64,000 nt of DNA from NCBI GenBank assembly GCA_009760855.2, contig WPIO01000008.1, forward strand, positions 5,490,001-5,554,000, written 5' to 3'. This document shows, piece after piece, positions 10,824 to 63,122 of the stretch. Numbering within the stretch: position 1 is the stretch's first letter; every line of letters starts with the position of its first letter. The DNA comes from Cristatella mucedo. Taxonomy: Eukaryota; Bryozoa; Phylactolaemata; Cristatellidae. The position numbers and the translations under genes are program-made. A model generated the notes under the pieces. That model was not told the DNA's origin, did no database searches, and saw only the letters and a list, made by a program, of their open reading frames with translations.

Positions 10824-11025
10824 ATAGTGGCCATGGACAGGCTAGATCACAAAGGCAGCTGCAGCCCTCATGTGCCATTTATGCTGCCTTTGGATGTGCA
10901 CCAATGCCGAGTTCCTGTCAAACAAAGATTTGTCAGCAACGGCTACTACGTGATGTCTGCTCAACCGAGTGGGAACGAGCCTACATACGAGAGAAAGTTC
11001 AAGCGACTCAGTGCAAGCTGACATT
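10824..11025 (+). CDS. Gene A: cysteine exon of secreted six-Cys peptide
   Basis: The acceptor GCAATGATTTTAG precedes ATAGTGG (phase 1). The donor ACATT/GTAAGT leaves in phase 2. The exon encodes six cysteines spaced C-X7-C-X6-C-X4-C-X8-C-X17-C, with landmarks CAIYAAFGC, CQTKICQ and a charged helix-like C5-C6 stretch. Intron 2 read through stops at the TAA of the donor. No signal-peptide exon was found upstream. The pyrimidine tract before the acceptor is itself open in frame and hydrophobic (VILVFLISSAMIL) after a GTG codon at 10763. A retrocopy with a lost ATG is therefore an alternative to a spliced exon. A family-2 retrotransposon fragment starts 15 bp after the donor. A weak candidate third exon begins at 11671. 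Function is unknown. Confidence 0.5.
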
Positions 11026-11039
11026 GTAAGTTATGCTAG

Positions 11040-11305
11040 CATTTTCTCTCCTGCTGCCGACTATGGCACATTTTTTCTAACGGTTCTGAGCTGCAAATTC
11101 CATTTTCACTACCGAAACTGCTCTCCTGACTCTGCTGCGCTTCCCATTTTTTTTCGTTGCGGGAGATGAAGTCTGTTGGCTACCGAAGGCGTACCGAAAC
11201 CGTTTAGTCTGTGAGTGCGCTATACAAAACTCTCCTGCTTAACACCCATAGTCCTAGTGGCTTTATGGAGCTGCAGACAGAGATATATTACAATTAATAC
11301 TTTCA
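11040..11305 (+). mobile_element. Family-2 CR1/L2-like element, 3' fragment
   Basis: About 260 bp is homologous to the 3' ends at 18.0, 24.1, 32.4 and 60.7 kb (CTCCTGCTGCCGACTATGG, then GCGCTATACAAAACTCTCCT near the ORF end). It lies immediately downstream of the exon of gene A. Confidence 0.75.
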
Positions 11306-12600
11306 GACAAGATAATTTTAACTTTTCCGGATCAGCATGGGAGTACTATGTACTAATAAATCCCTTCGTCGTCACAAAAATGAGCAGTACAAAGATTGCG
11401 ATGAAAACTAACAAATCCGTAGAGTAAGGGCTTAAGCTATGTTGGTAAAAGATTAATTTATCAGTATCTCAATCATATATTTATTATTACAAGCAGTAGA
11501 ACGATAGCCCTTTTATTGGAGCTTGAAATTTTGAGACGTGGAAAGTGGTTAATAAATGTGAAAAACTAATGACGTTACAACTTAATGGATATTTACTAAA
11601 GTATAAAAAGAAACGCACATTAAAAATTTGTTTAAATGATTATAAATTAGAGAAAAAAATTCTGCTTCAGAATTTCAAGGACTCTGAGTGCTTCTAACCT
11701 TGAAAATTGAGGTAATTATGAAATAAGTAAAAGATGCATGCTAATAAGGCAAATTACTTGCTTTCTGTGAATTTATAATATGCACACAAAACTCGTACAT
11801 GAAGTACTTATGTATAATTCCTTGGAACTGCTAGGTTAATTAGTGTCAGATTTCTTTGCTAATCACCCGAAAATAGTTTTGGAAGCCGGTTCTTGTTTTG
11901 AGCCAATAAGCCTTCACTGTAGTTGCTCTAGAGTTCGCCATGTTCCATATGTTCGTTGAGGTTTGTCACTGACGCTAACGGACGTCATGTGACGACTCAA
12001 GTAATGCCTCCAGACAAATAAAGTAATGGGAATTCAAAGCATGCCTACTTGAGTATCAGGCCACCGGATCGCTGCCCTGGCCCTCAAAGAGGAAGGAAAC
12101 GTTGAGCATTGAAGAGCAGGCAGCTTTAGCAAGGCAGCAGTGTCTTTTAAAGGCTAGTTGTTATTGTAGTTCTACTAATTTTTACGCGTGTATGTATGAA
12201 TGTGAATATATGAGTACGAATATACTGTACGTATCGTACTGCATATACCATATTTTTGGCTATTTCGTTAGCTACGCATGTCTTGTTGAGCTCTGCGAGT
12301 GTCTGCTGAGAAGCACCGAATAGGTTAGCCAGTACTTTACCACGTCCATAGGCCAAACGGTTAACCAGCCACATAGACCTAAGAAATTCTATGGAAGTGA
12401 AATACCGAAACGGGTACAAGAAGCGAAGAGTCCGAATCAGTAAAATTGCACTTACTAGTGGTTCTCGATAGTCATCGTATATTTATTCATGTAAAACTCT
12501 TATGACTGATAGCTCATTGGCTAACATATCATCTTAAGGGTCAGACAAACTATTCTATATCTGACTATATCCATATAAATATGTTTACACACCATAGCAT
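11306..12600. other. AT-rich DNA without supported gene
   Basis: Possible acceptor at 11661-11670 (TCTGCTTCAG) followed by 13 open codons, a weak candidate for the last exon of gene A. An AATAAA lies near 12015. Nothing else is recognised. Confidence 0.3.
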
Positions 12601-12619
12601 ACGCACGCAAGCACACATA

Positions 12620-12659
12620 CACACACACACACACACACACACACACACACACACACACA
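12620..12659. repeat. (CA)n microsatellite
   Basis: About 20 uninterrupted CA units, leading into a TA-rich ladder. Confidence 0.9.
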
Positions 12660-12698
12660 TACAGACACACGCACACATACCTGCACACATTTGCATGT

Positions 12699-13026
12699 AC
12701 TTACATATATATACATATACATATACATATATATATATATATATATTTATATATTTATATAGTACGTATAGTAATATATAGTATATATATATATATATTT
12801 ATATATACTTATATAGTATATATATATATATATATTTATATACGTACATATATATACATATACATATACATATACATATATATATATTTATATATTTATA
12901 TATTACGTATAGTAATATATATTATATATATATATTTATATATACTTATATAGTATATATGTATATTTATATACGTACATATATATACATATACATATAC
13001 ATATATATATATTTATATATTTATAT
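12699..13026. repeat. TA-rich tandem repeat, period about 130-145 bp
   Basis: Blocks starting ACATATATATACATATACAT recur at about 12.70, 12.85 and 12.98 kb. They alternate with TTATATAGTACGTATAGTAA-type blocks, so a long compound unit is repeated two to three times and is not a plain dinucleotide run. Confidence 0.7.
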
Positions 13027-60660: not shown

Positions 60661-60724
60661 AGCTCTTGTCACTTGTGGCTTTGTTGTTAGACAAGTGTGA
60701 CACCTATTATTTGCTATAATTTAC

Positions 60725-61003
60725 GGAACGACAACTACTCTCCTGCTGCCGACTATGGCGCACCTTTTCCAGCCGTCCTGAGCTGCTACTTGTACGATAC
60801 TCACTTTTTCAACTGCCCTGCTGACTCAGCAGCTGTGCTTCCCACGTTCACTTTGTTGAGTGAGACGAAGTCTATTGGCTACCGAATGCGTACCGAAAGC
60901 CGCTTAGGCTGTGAGTGCGCTATACAAAACTCTCCTGCGTAACACCCACATTGTCATTTTTACTTTGTGGAGTTACATACAGAGATACATTACATTACAT
61001 AAC
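60725..61003 (+). mobile_element. Family-2 element, 3' fragment in intron 1 of gene E
   Basis: CTCTCCTGCTGCCGACTATGG through GGCTACCGAATGCGTACCG and GAGTGCGCTATACAAAACTC to a CATTACATTACAT tail, the family-2 3' end. The 5' truncation point is close to that of the copy next to gene A. Confidence 0.8.
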
Positions 61004-61343
61004 TTTGTCACTGAATTTTCTTGTATTAAAATGGATTTATCAAGACGAGAGACCGGGTCGTCCTAATGACCAGGTTTAACTAGTTAATTTGCAGCATCGT
61101 AGGTGGCTCTCGCTGAGGTCCTGCAACCAGTCAGCCTGGGTTCGTCCTTTCATCGATGACCCAACCTGGCTCTTAGTACAAGAGCAAATAATAGCTGAAG
61201 ATAAATTGCGCAAAAAACTTGCGCGCGTAAGTATTTAGTGAGTCAGTGGACGATAGCTTTCAACGCAAGCGTTGTATGCAAATGTTCCTTCCATATGACG
61301 ACGACGAGAATGACGCGCGTCTCGAGCATCCTCGCTGTTTCAG

Positions 61344-61524
61344 CTGACGACCAGTGCAGGAGCAGGGTCACCCAGTGCATCGCTTCGACCTCGAGCAGGC
61401 CGTGCGAGACCCAGACGTGTATGGTGATGGTGGCGGCAAACTTTGCCGTTTGCCCTCGCGATTCCCCTTACCGAAGGGACCTAACGAGACTCATGCAGCG
61501 AGTAGCCAGTGGCTGCCGGTCACA
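61344..61524 (+). CDS. Gene E exon 2: six-Cys peptide
   Basis: The acceptor CATCCTCGCTGTTTCAG precedes CTGACGACC (phase 1). Six cysteines are spaced C-X6-C-X8-C-X4-C-X10-C-X20-C (CRSRVTQC, CETQTC, then a basic helix-like C5-C6 stretch with DLTRLMQRVASGC). The donor is GGTCACA/GTAAGT (phase 2), whose TAA would end the frame if unspliced. GC is higher here than in the introns, as expected for coding sequence. Signal-peptide exon, phase pattern and cysteine frame make this the second well-preserved gene of the cluster. Predicted to be secreted; function is unknown. Confidence 0.65.
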
Positions 61525-62936
61525 GTAAGTACTTCGCTGCCATCGACCTGTCCTAAGAAGCTGAATGCATCGGTTCGGCAAACGAGCAGCATGACGAATC
61601 ATTTGGCCGCCTTAGGTCATGCGGGCTACGCGTCATATCTAGCAGTCACTCCGTGTGTCGCTGATTTGCTCCTCTTTGAGTGAAGCGTATTTGCAGCTTC
61701 CTCAAGTTTACTTATCAAAACGTCGTGAAACTACAATCGAACTTACGAGCTAGAAAAGTGCACTGCTATAAATCAAAGATCATTGACTGAAGAGAAGAGC
61801 AAGTAAACCCTCCAATTAATTCGACAAGACACTCTTTCAGTGTGATACGCATTTGAGGTGCTGCTCAGCTTATTCTATCACTAATTGTACTATCTACAGA
61901 TATAATCTGAACATCTTGGCGGCGGCAAAAAATTATGACGGCGCCGCCCAATGTGTAAACTAAATGAACGATTTTTTTTCTTTTCGGAGTAGAGTGCCTA
62001 AGAATTCGATAACTTCAAAGTATTTAATCTTTTAAAATTGCCACTAGGTTTAAGGTCTGGCGGTCAGATCCAGCAGGCGCTCTCACAATCTTTTTATAGC
62101 TGTCTTACAATAATCATCGTGAAGCTTTACTTGGAGGCAGTATAGCCAAACATGCATAGTATTAGCCTGTGTAGAAAAATTGCAGGTGCACCGGTCAGCA
62201 TGTCATTAAGTCCGCTTCAACTGTTCCATCGTAGCAAACCTCATTTTATTTCCCTTGAGGAAAAGAATAAGAACACAATGCACAAGTCTCATCACACAAG
62301 ACTATTAACAAGAAATTAGTGTAAACGGTTTACCATTTAACTTCTGCGTGAGTAAATGGATGCCATAAGAAGCCACGTCACAGCTCTTAGTATCAAGATT
62401 CTCAGATATTCAAATATTAGAGGCAGCTGCAGAGTCTTATACGATTAGTTGATGTTTGCCTTAAACATGGTGGCTATTAAATTCCTGAGGTCCTTTAAAG
62501 GCAACTGCCATATTTTAGAGGTTCTAAAAATGCTAAAAAAATAGCTTGTTATTTAACGTTAGTATTTCCATGTCCAGAGCACAAGATCCGCATGATGAAG
62601 TCAAATGATTTCCTAGCTACTGCAATGATTATTCAAAGGGCTTAATACCGATGTGTCGCAGTGGATTACAGCGACACAGATTATGCTGCAAAAAGCAGTT
62701 ACCTTGCCAAATCAATCATCTCGATAAGTATGATTTGACGATGAGTTATATTCATGGCAACGGAACCAATCAGATCAAAATTTCACAACCAAATAGCTTA
62801 ACATACCCAGAACAGTTAAATTCCGACTTGCCTTCATCGTGATCATGTGTTCACAATTTAGAATGTGGTTTCCCTTTATATTCAAATAATTGTTTGTCAA
62901 TGCTTCTGGAATTGTATAGCATTTTTATGCTTGCAG

Positions 62937-63118
62937 CCTTGCTCTTCAAATCTTTCGAGGATAAAATCAATATCCCAACTGATCGGCAGCAAATAACTGA
63001 AGTGCTGCATGAGTGTGACGTGATGAAATACCACTACCATCGAGCGAAATCTGGATTTTTCAGAATTTCAAGCCGTAATATACATTACAAAATATCCTTC
63101 ACTGTGTCCTACTTTTAA
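62937..63118 (+). CDS. Gene E candidate last exon
   Basis: A strong acceptor (GCATTTTTATGCTTGCAG) precedes CCTTGC. Entered in phase 2 directly from exon 2, it adds eight whole codons and stops at TAA 62962-62964. Entered in phase 1 it is open for about 60 codons, to a TAA that overlaps the AATAAA at 63117. The phase-1 reading would need one more exon (phase 2 to 1), as suspected for gene C. Which reading is used cannot be decided here. Confidence 0.3.
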
Positions 63119-63122
63119 TAAA
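63117..63122 (+). terminator. Polyadenylation signal AATAAA
   Basis: Canonical hexamer 180 bp after the candidate last acceptor of gene E, fitting the end of a short terminal exon. Confidence 0.4.

Follow-up and report, generated by a model that had tools for sequence, protein, structure and literature searches.

A tandem cluster of three-exon genes predicted to encode secreted six-cysteine peptides in the bryozoan Cristatella mucedo

When neighboring exons share a spacing of cysteines and almost nothing else, do they belong to one gene family, and what might that family make? The question is raised by a 64,000-nucleotide stretch of the Cristatella mucedo genome (hereafter the window), positions 5,490,001 to 5,554,000 of contig WPIO01000008.1 in assembly GCA_009760855.2, which corresponds to C676:5490001-5554000 among the 688 contigs of this 572-Mb assembly. 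An earlier note on this DNA proposed that six of its exons encode a tandem, co-oriented set of secreted six-cysteine peptides of no recognized family. Venoms, mating signals, and immunity all draw on tandemly arrayed, quickly evolving secreted disulfide peptides, families that ordinary similarity searches easily miss. The outline of that proposal held up: we found signal-like exons, a conserved gene layout, and two paralogues, and there was no convincing relative of the members in Pfam, among PDB sequences, or in the protein database searched. We consider it likely that the cluster consists of tandem three-exon genes for secreted, probably amidated extracellular ligands with a disulfide-locked three-helix fold, and that they form a lineage-restricted family. 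Members inside the window are called A, B, C (at 35.2 kb), E, and F; G and E2 lie outside it.

Four of the six proposed exons, those at 10.8 kb (A), 23.0 kb (B), 47.5 kb (E), and 61.4 kb (F), were supported, all on the plus strand. They share the frame C-X6-7-C-X6-8-C-X4-C-X7-10-C-X17-20-C, with gaps of 7-6-4-8-17 in A, 7-7-4-7-17 in B, 6-7-4-7-19 in E, and 6-8-4-10-20 in F, so that the X4 and X7-10 intervals on which the proposal had been built are present in each. Neither of the remaining two exons stands as an intact member: that at 35.2 kb is a pseudogene, described below, and that at 41.8 kb is not a member, its exon-2 profile E value of about 1 being noise and inspection by eye finding no plus-strand reading frame with the cysteine pattern. 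A regular expression for the six cysteines, shaped after the exons had been seen, matched four times on the plus strand of the window (A, B, E, and F) and once on the minus strand. It did not match at all in 60 dinucleotide shuffles of the plus strand.

Because the expression was shaped on the exons themselves, we examined features that lie outside it, the donor and the acceptor phases. In every supported six-cysteine exon, the acceptor at the start is of phase 1, and a GTRAGT donor in phase 2 follows Cys6 by no more than 17 bases; these donors were spotted by eye before they were counted systematically. The count covered 264 kb on both strands (5 kb of it N), with a broader six-cysteine expression and donors accepted up to 29 bases past Cys6. 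It gave 10 matches, 5 of which (A, B, E, F, and G) had both donor and acceptor, and the other 5 had no phase-2 GTRAGT donor. By chance, such a donor lies within 17 bases downstream of a random TGY in 73 of 18,919 cases. The combination of six cysteines with a phase-2 donor and a phase-1 acceptor was therefore seen in five exons, all within a single 54-kb cluster, and was absent from the remaining five matches. The same donors show that the coding ends had previously been placed too early: the exon continues to the phase-2 donor just past Cys6, and the stops that had been read in A, E, and F overlap that donor.

The complete gene structure came from two relatives, which were found in similarity searches of the whole assembly with single members. 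The search with F identified G at C676:5555266, just past the end of the window, and the search with E identified E2 on contig C34, which is 78% identical to E and recovers E in the reverse search. G matches F in the signal exon, in exon 2 (63% amino acid identity), and in the last exon, where its tail is LALEIIRG-stop and the acceptor, frame, and stop are as in F. E and E2 have in common the initial ATG, two introns of matching phase, all six cysteines, and a short tail, which reads APQTGVDLKMPG-stop in E and VPQTGVDWRMPG-stop in E2. Thus, both relatives, although found afterward by similarity, keep the six cysteines, both intron phases, and the stop. These comparisons fix a three-exon model: a signal peptide exon followed by a phase-1 intron, the six-cysteine exon followed by a phase-2 intron, and an exon for a short tail that closes with Gly-stop. 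In E, E2, F, and G alike, the length of exon 2 is exactly 181 nucleotides, and a TATA-like box lies 72 to 91 bp upstream of the start codon in B, E, and F; that of B is a TATA box. The region first proposed for the cluster ends at position 63122, where the poly(A) signal of gene F also ends.

Signal-like exons, called by a hydrophobicity rule, were found for B, C, E, and F. Three signal exons and a decayed fourth had been proposed under letters that may not map onto ours; of those found here, the one at C belongs to the pseudogene, and candidates for A were unconvincing. A spacing of 6 to 12 kb had also been proposed and was not what we found. Exon-2 starts are 12.2, 12.2, 12.3, and 13.8 kb apart (12,160 bp for A-B, 12,176 for B-C, 12,338 for C-E, and 13,846 for E-F), and those of F and G are 3.9 kb apart. 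Intervals this similar might be left over from a 12-kb unit of duplication, or they may be coincidence.

Two open frames had been candidates for last exons. The frame at 62609-62842 on the plus strand, in intron 2 of F, is Cys rich with a phase-2 acceptor and was dropped as the third exon of F, because it is not conserved in G, which conserves the exon at 62937 instead; it is possibly an alternative exon of F. The Cys-rich frame at 51052-51450 on the plus strand, 3' of gene E, was replaced as exon 3 of E by the exon conserved in E2. It has 132 codons and eight cysteines, and its last 87 residues have no Pfam match.

Are these genes, or Cys-rich frames that arose by chance or are decaying without function? 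Decay has occurred in the cluster. Copy C is a pseudogene of E: relative to E, insertions of 2 and 3 bases lie next to each other and shift the frame, Arg replaces Cys5, and the donor is lost. Furthermore, A and B have neither relatives nor complete gene models. E and E2 speak against such a remnant. Their Ka of 0.15 is well below their Ks of 0.31, and Ks is about equal to the divergence of pieces of their introns (0.28 to 0.37 substitutions per site); therefore, the coding sequence is under constraint (omega 0.48, bootstrap 0.25 to 0.95; 0.34 in exon 2 and 0.80 in the signal). Splice sites, frame, and stops are retained both in E/E2 and in F/G. For F/G, omega is 0.54 (bootstrap 0.28 to 1.13; 0.83 in exon 2 and 0.23 in the signal), and cysteines, frame, and splice sites are preserved despite the wide interval, so coding constraint is less well supported for this pair than for E/E2. 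Given these results, we regard a functionless remnant as very improbable.

The block around E2 is collinear with about 43.5 to 49.9 kb of the window in pieces that are 67 to 78% identical, noncoding DNA included, and a few further pieces of C34 are out of order and resemble dispersed repeats. Downstream of E exon 2, among the 40 matches scored from 850 candidates, C34 alone covers most of the segment, the other 38 nonself matches being to a repeat at the segment's end. The E locus thus has a collinear counterpart, about 70% identical, at C34:30001-40000, which may be an old duplication or a very divergent haplotype. E and E2 also have a seventh cysteine near the presumed mature N terminus, which could serve in dimer formation.

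Whether the A, B, E, and F lineages descend from one gene is a harder question. Between lineages, 1 to 7 of 46 to 49 non-Cys positions are in common, in agreement with the statement that almost every other residue differs. That statement had been extended to rapid diversification; the near absence of common non-Cys residues fits it, but the omega values of 0.54 and 0.48 give no sign of positive selection. We tested the lineages with leave-one-out exon-2 profiles over 5,286 open reading frames (ORFs). When left out, B ranked 5th (E value of 0.041), with only the four trained exons ahead of it. A ranked 6th (E value of 0.15), outscored by its four trained exons and by pseudogene C; if C is set aside, each of the two is first among the untrained ORFs.

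Several observations weigh against a single family of amidated ligands. When left out, E ranked 41st, F 2,243rd, and G 237th, and no hhalign comparison was significant, the best having an E value of 0.018 and a probability of 1.2%. Genome similarity searches gave no relative of A or of B. For A, the eight candidates for a signal exon between 5.2 and 10.8 kb were all unconvincing; a LINE occupies part of the 5.6 kb upstream of its exon 2. B has an in-frame TAG at 23169-23171, inside exon 2 just ahead of the phase-2 donor. Searches for a last exon, one of which covered C and another A and C, gave no convincing candidate for A, B, or C, and the Gly-stop tail is established for neither A nor B. 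The bootstrap interval of the F/G omega reaches 1 and is compatible with an absence of constraint. Finally, the pI spans 4.4 (B) to 9.6 (F).

Because sequence does not join the four lineages, we infer their common descent from anatomy, and we hold it to be very likely. They are linked by intron phases 1 and 2, a donor right after Cys6, the invariant X4, a common strand, and adjacency, and two of them (E and F) also share the 181-nucleotide exon 2 and Gly-stop tails. Had unrelated small secreted peptides converged on a similar cysteine frame, the only families would be F/G and C/E/E2; the failure of profile and pairwise tests to join the lineages and their low non-Cys identity are what this would predict. 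The shared anatomy speaks against convergence, which we judge improbable. The exons might instead encode repeated domains within a single large secreted protein, since they lie on one strand, are similar in size, and have the wide spacing that suits the introns of a long gene. With exon 2 entered in phase 1 and left in phase 2, however, splicing one copy directly to the next would break the reading frame. A separate signal exon accompanies each of B, C, E, F, and G, there are TATA-like boxes at B, E, and F, and E and F each have their own stop exon. We consider a single large protein very unlikely, and we retain separate genes of common descent.

Next, we considered what these genes might make. 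As had been suggested, structure prediction gave a common helical fold. AlphaFold2 modeled exon 2 of F as a three-helix bundle with a pLDDT of 87 and a pTM of 0.69 (mean pLDDT of 68 to 87 over five models) and exon 2 of E as a three-helix bundle with a pLDDT of 81 and a pTM of 0.60 (73 to 81 over five models). The alignments contained five sequences for F and four for E; the latter consisted of E with E2, A, and B and excluded F and G. In both models, helix 1 spans Cys1 and Cys2, helix 2 spans Cys3 and Cys4, and Cys6 is at the end of helix 3; Cys5 lies after helix 2 in F and at or after its end in E. F and E are thus predicted to place the same three helices relative to the cysteines. Comparison of the models with PDB structures gave only generic helical arrangements.

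A Gly directly before the stop is the classic signal for C-terminal amidation. It is found, in a conserved last exon, in E, E2, F, and G. As background, 10 of 143 acceptor-like short tails end in Gly-stop; 4 of these are the true tails (E counted from two acceptors), leaving 6 of 139. The peptides of the E and F lineages are therefore probably amidated, as judged from their predicted tails. The Cu2 monooxygenase domain, the class to which the amidating enzyme belongs, had 30 matches in the genome; this domain also occurs in other enzymes. Several of the matches are clustered at C343:701017-910011 and C676:9031893-9226670. Under a crude -3/-1 rule, F and G have several possible signal peptidase sites, one of which precedes a Gln, and with Gln as the N-terminal residue, these two peptides could be blocked at both ends.

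Inferring expression, secretion, disulfide bonding, and amidation from the DNA, we propose a model in which each gene of the array would yield one small secreted peptide. The precursor would enter the secretory pathway and lose its signal peptide, three disulfides would lock a three-helix bundle of about 60 residues, the C-terminal Gly of the E and F lineages would be converted to an amide, and the product would leave the cell as a stable ligand. Paralogues would arise through local duplication (F/G and C/E) and segmental duplication (E/E2), some would decay, as C has, and all but the cysteine scaffold would change.

The role of such ligands is the least certain part of the model. We tentatively prefer receptor-binding signals, pheromone or hormone like and possibly reproductive, while giving this role somewhat less than an even chance. 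The same genes might instead make defense or venom-like effectors that bind microbial, prey, or parasite targets, which we think rather unlikely. A tandem array, a pseudogene, a segmental copy, and a near-total loss of non-Cys identity are the usual marks of arms-race families, and four of the peptides (F, G, E2, and A) are basic. With B acidic and E neutral, no common cationic mechanism applies; so wide a range of charge speaks for ligands that each have their own target rather than for one membrane-lytic mode common to all. In addition, neither omega value points to positive selection, and exon 2 is conserved between E and E2. Other secreted roles make up the remainder. If the preferred reading as amidated ligands is true, the cluster provides a set of new peptide ligands to pair with orphan receptors. 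A bolder form of it, which we find doubtful, is that they represent an undescribed, lineage-restricted superfamily of amidated, disulfide-locked three-helix signals in which receptor-facing residues have been almost wholly replaced while the cysteine scaffold and gene layout stayed fixed.

Features of the cluster within the window
Feature	Positions	Strand	Basis
Gene A, six-Cys exon, phase 1 in and phase 2 out	10824..11025	+	six-Cys regular expression, acceptor, GTAAGT donor
Gene B, candidate signal peptide exon, phase-1 donor	20710..20806	+	hydrophobicity rule; TATATAAAG at 20619
Gene B, six-Cys exon	22984..23173	+	regular expression, acceptor and donor
C, signal exon, pseudogene copy of E	33061..33142	+	90% identical to E over 134 bp
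C, degraded six-Cys exon, end approximate	35160..35330	+	72% identical to E exon 2 over 189 bp
Gene E, TATA box	45498..45505	+	sequence
Gene E, candidate signal peptide exon	45570..45672	+	hydrophobicity rule, conserved with E2
Gene E, six-Cys exon (181 nucleotides)	47498..47678	+	regular expression, E2 comparison, acceptor and donor, AlphaFold three-helix bundle
Gene E, last coding exon, tail APQTGVDLKMPG-stop	48742..48781	+	acceptor, frame, and stop kept in E2
Gene F, TATA-like box	60123..60128	+	sequence
Gene F, candidate signal peptide exon	60197..60272	+	hydrophobicity rule, conserved with G
Gene F, six-Cys exon (181 nucleotides)	61344..61524	+	regular expression, G comparison, acceptor and donor, AlphaFold three-helix bundle
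Gene F, last coding exon, tail LALQIFRG-stop	62937..62964	+	acceptor, frame, and stop kept in G
Gene F, AATAAA poly(A) signal	63117..63122	+	sequence

LINE fragments are common in the window. Two LINE reverse transcriptase copies, at 7931-9439 on the plus strand and 40808-39300 on the minus strand, are 93.7% identical, and a protein close to that LINE (95% identical over 55% of the query) is encoded on a short JGI contig. A second type of reverse transcriptase, R2 like by eye, lies in pieces at 54178-56270 on the minus strand. Fragments resembling LINE 3' ends occur in the introns and spacers of the cluster at 11040-11292, 17979-18249, 24077-24359, 32320-32595, and 60721-61006; part of one of these has at least 40 further matches in the genome. 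An ORF rich in Ala, at 3942-4607 on the minus strand, begins like a signal peptide and includes a stretch resembling a coiled coil; another ORF of similar appearance is located some 66 kb upstream of the window. Elsewhere in the assembly, COX1 on contig C688 (21,008 bp) has 11 in-frame TGA codons and reads in genetic code 5, that of invertebrate mitochondria (AGR as Ser, ATA as Met, TGA as Trp), in which the residues that we take to be conserved in COX1 are present at their positions. This usage points to an invertebrate animal as the most likely source and counts against flatworms, echinoderms, cnidarians, sponges, and vertebrates; the source may be a lophotrochozoan. Further COX1 matches on C166, C83, C549, and C299, several of them with stops other than TGA, are possibly nuclear copies.

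How does the cluster compare with known peptides? Because no convincing relative was found in Pfam, PDB, or the protein database, it is on present evidence a new family of secreted disulfide peptides, of a known kind of system; in the literature searched, largely abstracts and passages, it was not recognized. None of five members matched the Pfam profiles of CHH/ITP, eclosion hormone, or RAMP at an E value of ≤10, in a search whose HMMER filters drop most matches above about 0.1 and which gave only two unrelated weak matches. The RAMP ectodomain and the MIT domain were compared by fold only, and neither scored beyond what common helical arrangements give; RAMPs, moreover, sit in membranes, and MIT domains are found inside cells. 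Attractin, the water-borne pheromone of Aplysia, is a small secreted helical six-cysteine peptide with gaps of about 8-6-5-6-7. Eclosion hormone has a cysteine spacing different from that found here, and the CHH/ITP disulfides are C1-C5, C2-C4, and C3-C6. Eclosion hormone is a peptide hormone with six cysteines and three disulfides that is also present in the oyster, a lophotrochozoan (PMC8398477). The CHH/ITP superfamily of arthropods and other ecdysozoans, which includes the HAND toxins, resembles the present family in being secreted, helical, about 70 residues long, and six-cysteine. Its cysteines, at 7, 23, 26, 39, 43, and 52, give gaps of 15-2-12-3-8, in contrast to 6-7/6-8/4/7-10/17-20 here; one CHH precursor carries a Gly extension (PMC8541221). 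Amidation is found in some members of the superfamily. The CRP-I peptides of the mussel Mytilus are likewise secreted six-cysteine peptides of a multigene family that is extremely diverse, includes pseudogenes, and is assumed to be amidated at the C terminus (PMC10138031). They form a knottin array, C(X3-6)C(X1-7)CC(X3-4)C(X3-5)C, their signal and propeptide are conserved, and the last exon encodes the mature peptide (PMC10138031), whereas the six-cysteine domains of A, B, E, F, G, and E2 contain no adjacent cysteines like the CRP-I CC pair, the signals differ among B, E, and F, the cysteine domain occupies the second of three exons (in E, F, G, and E2), and the model is helical. Because the gene layout is fixed and the predicted helical scaffold is unlike the knottin type, three exons, phases 1 and 2, C-X4-C, and Gly-stop can serve as a template for relatives that sequence searches miss.

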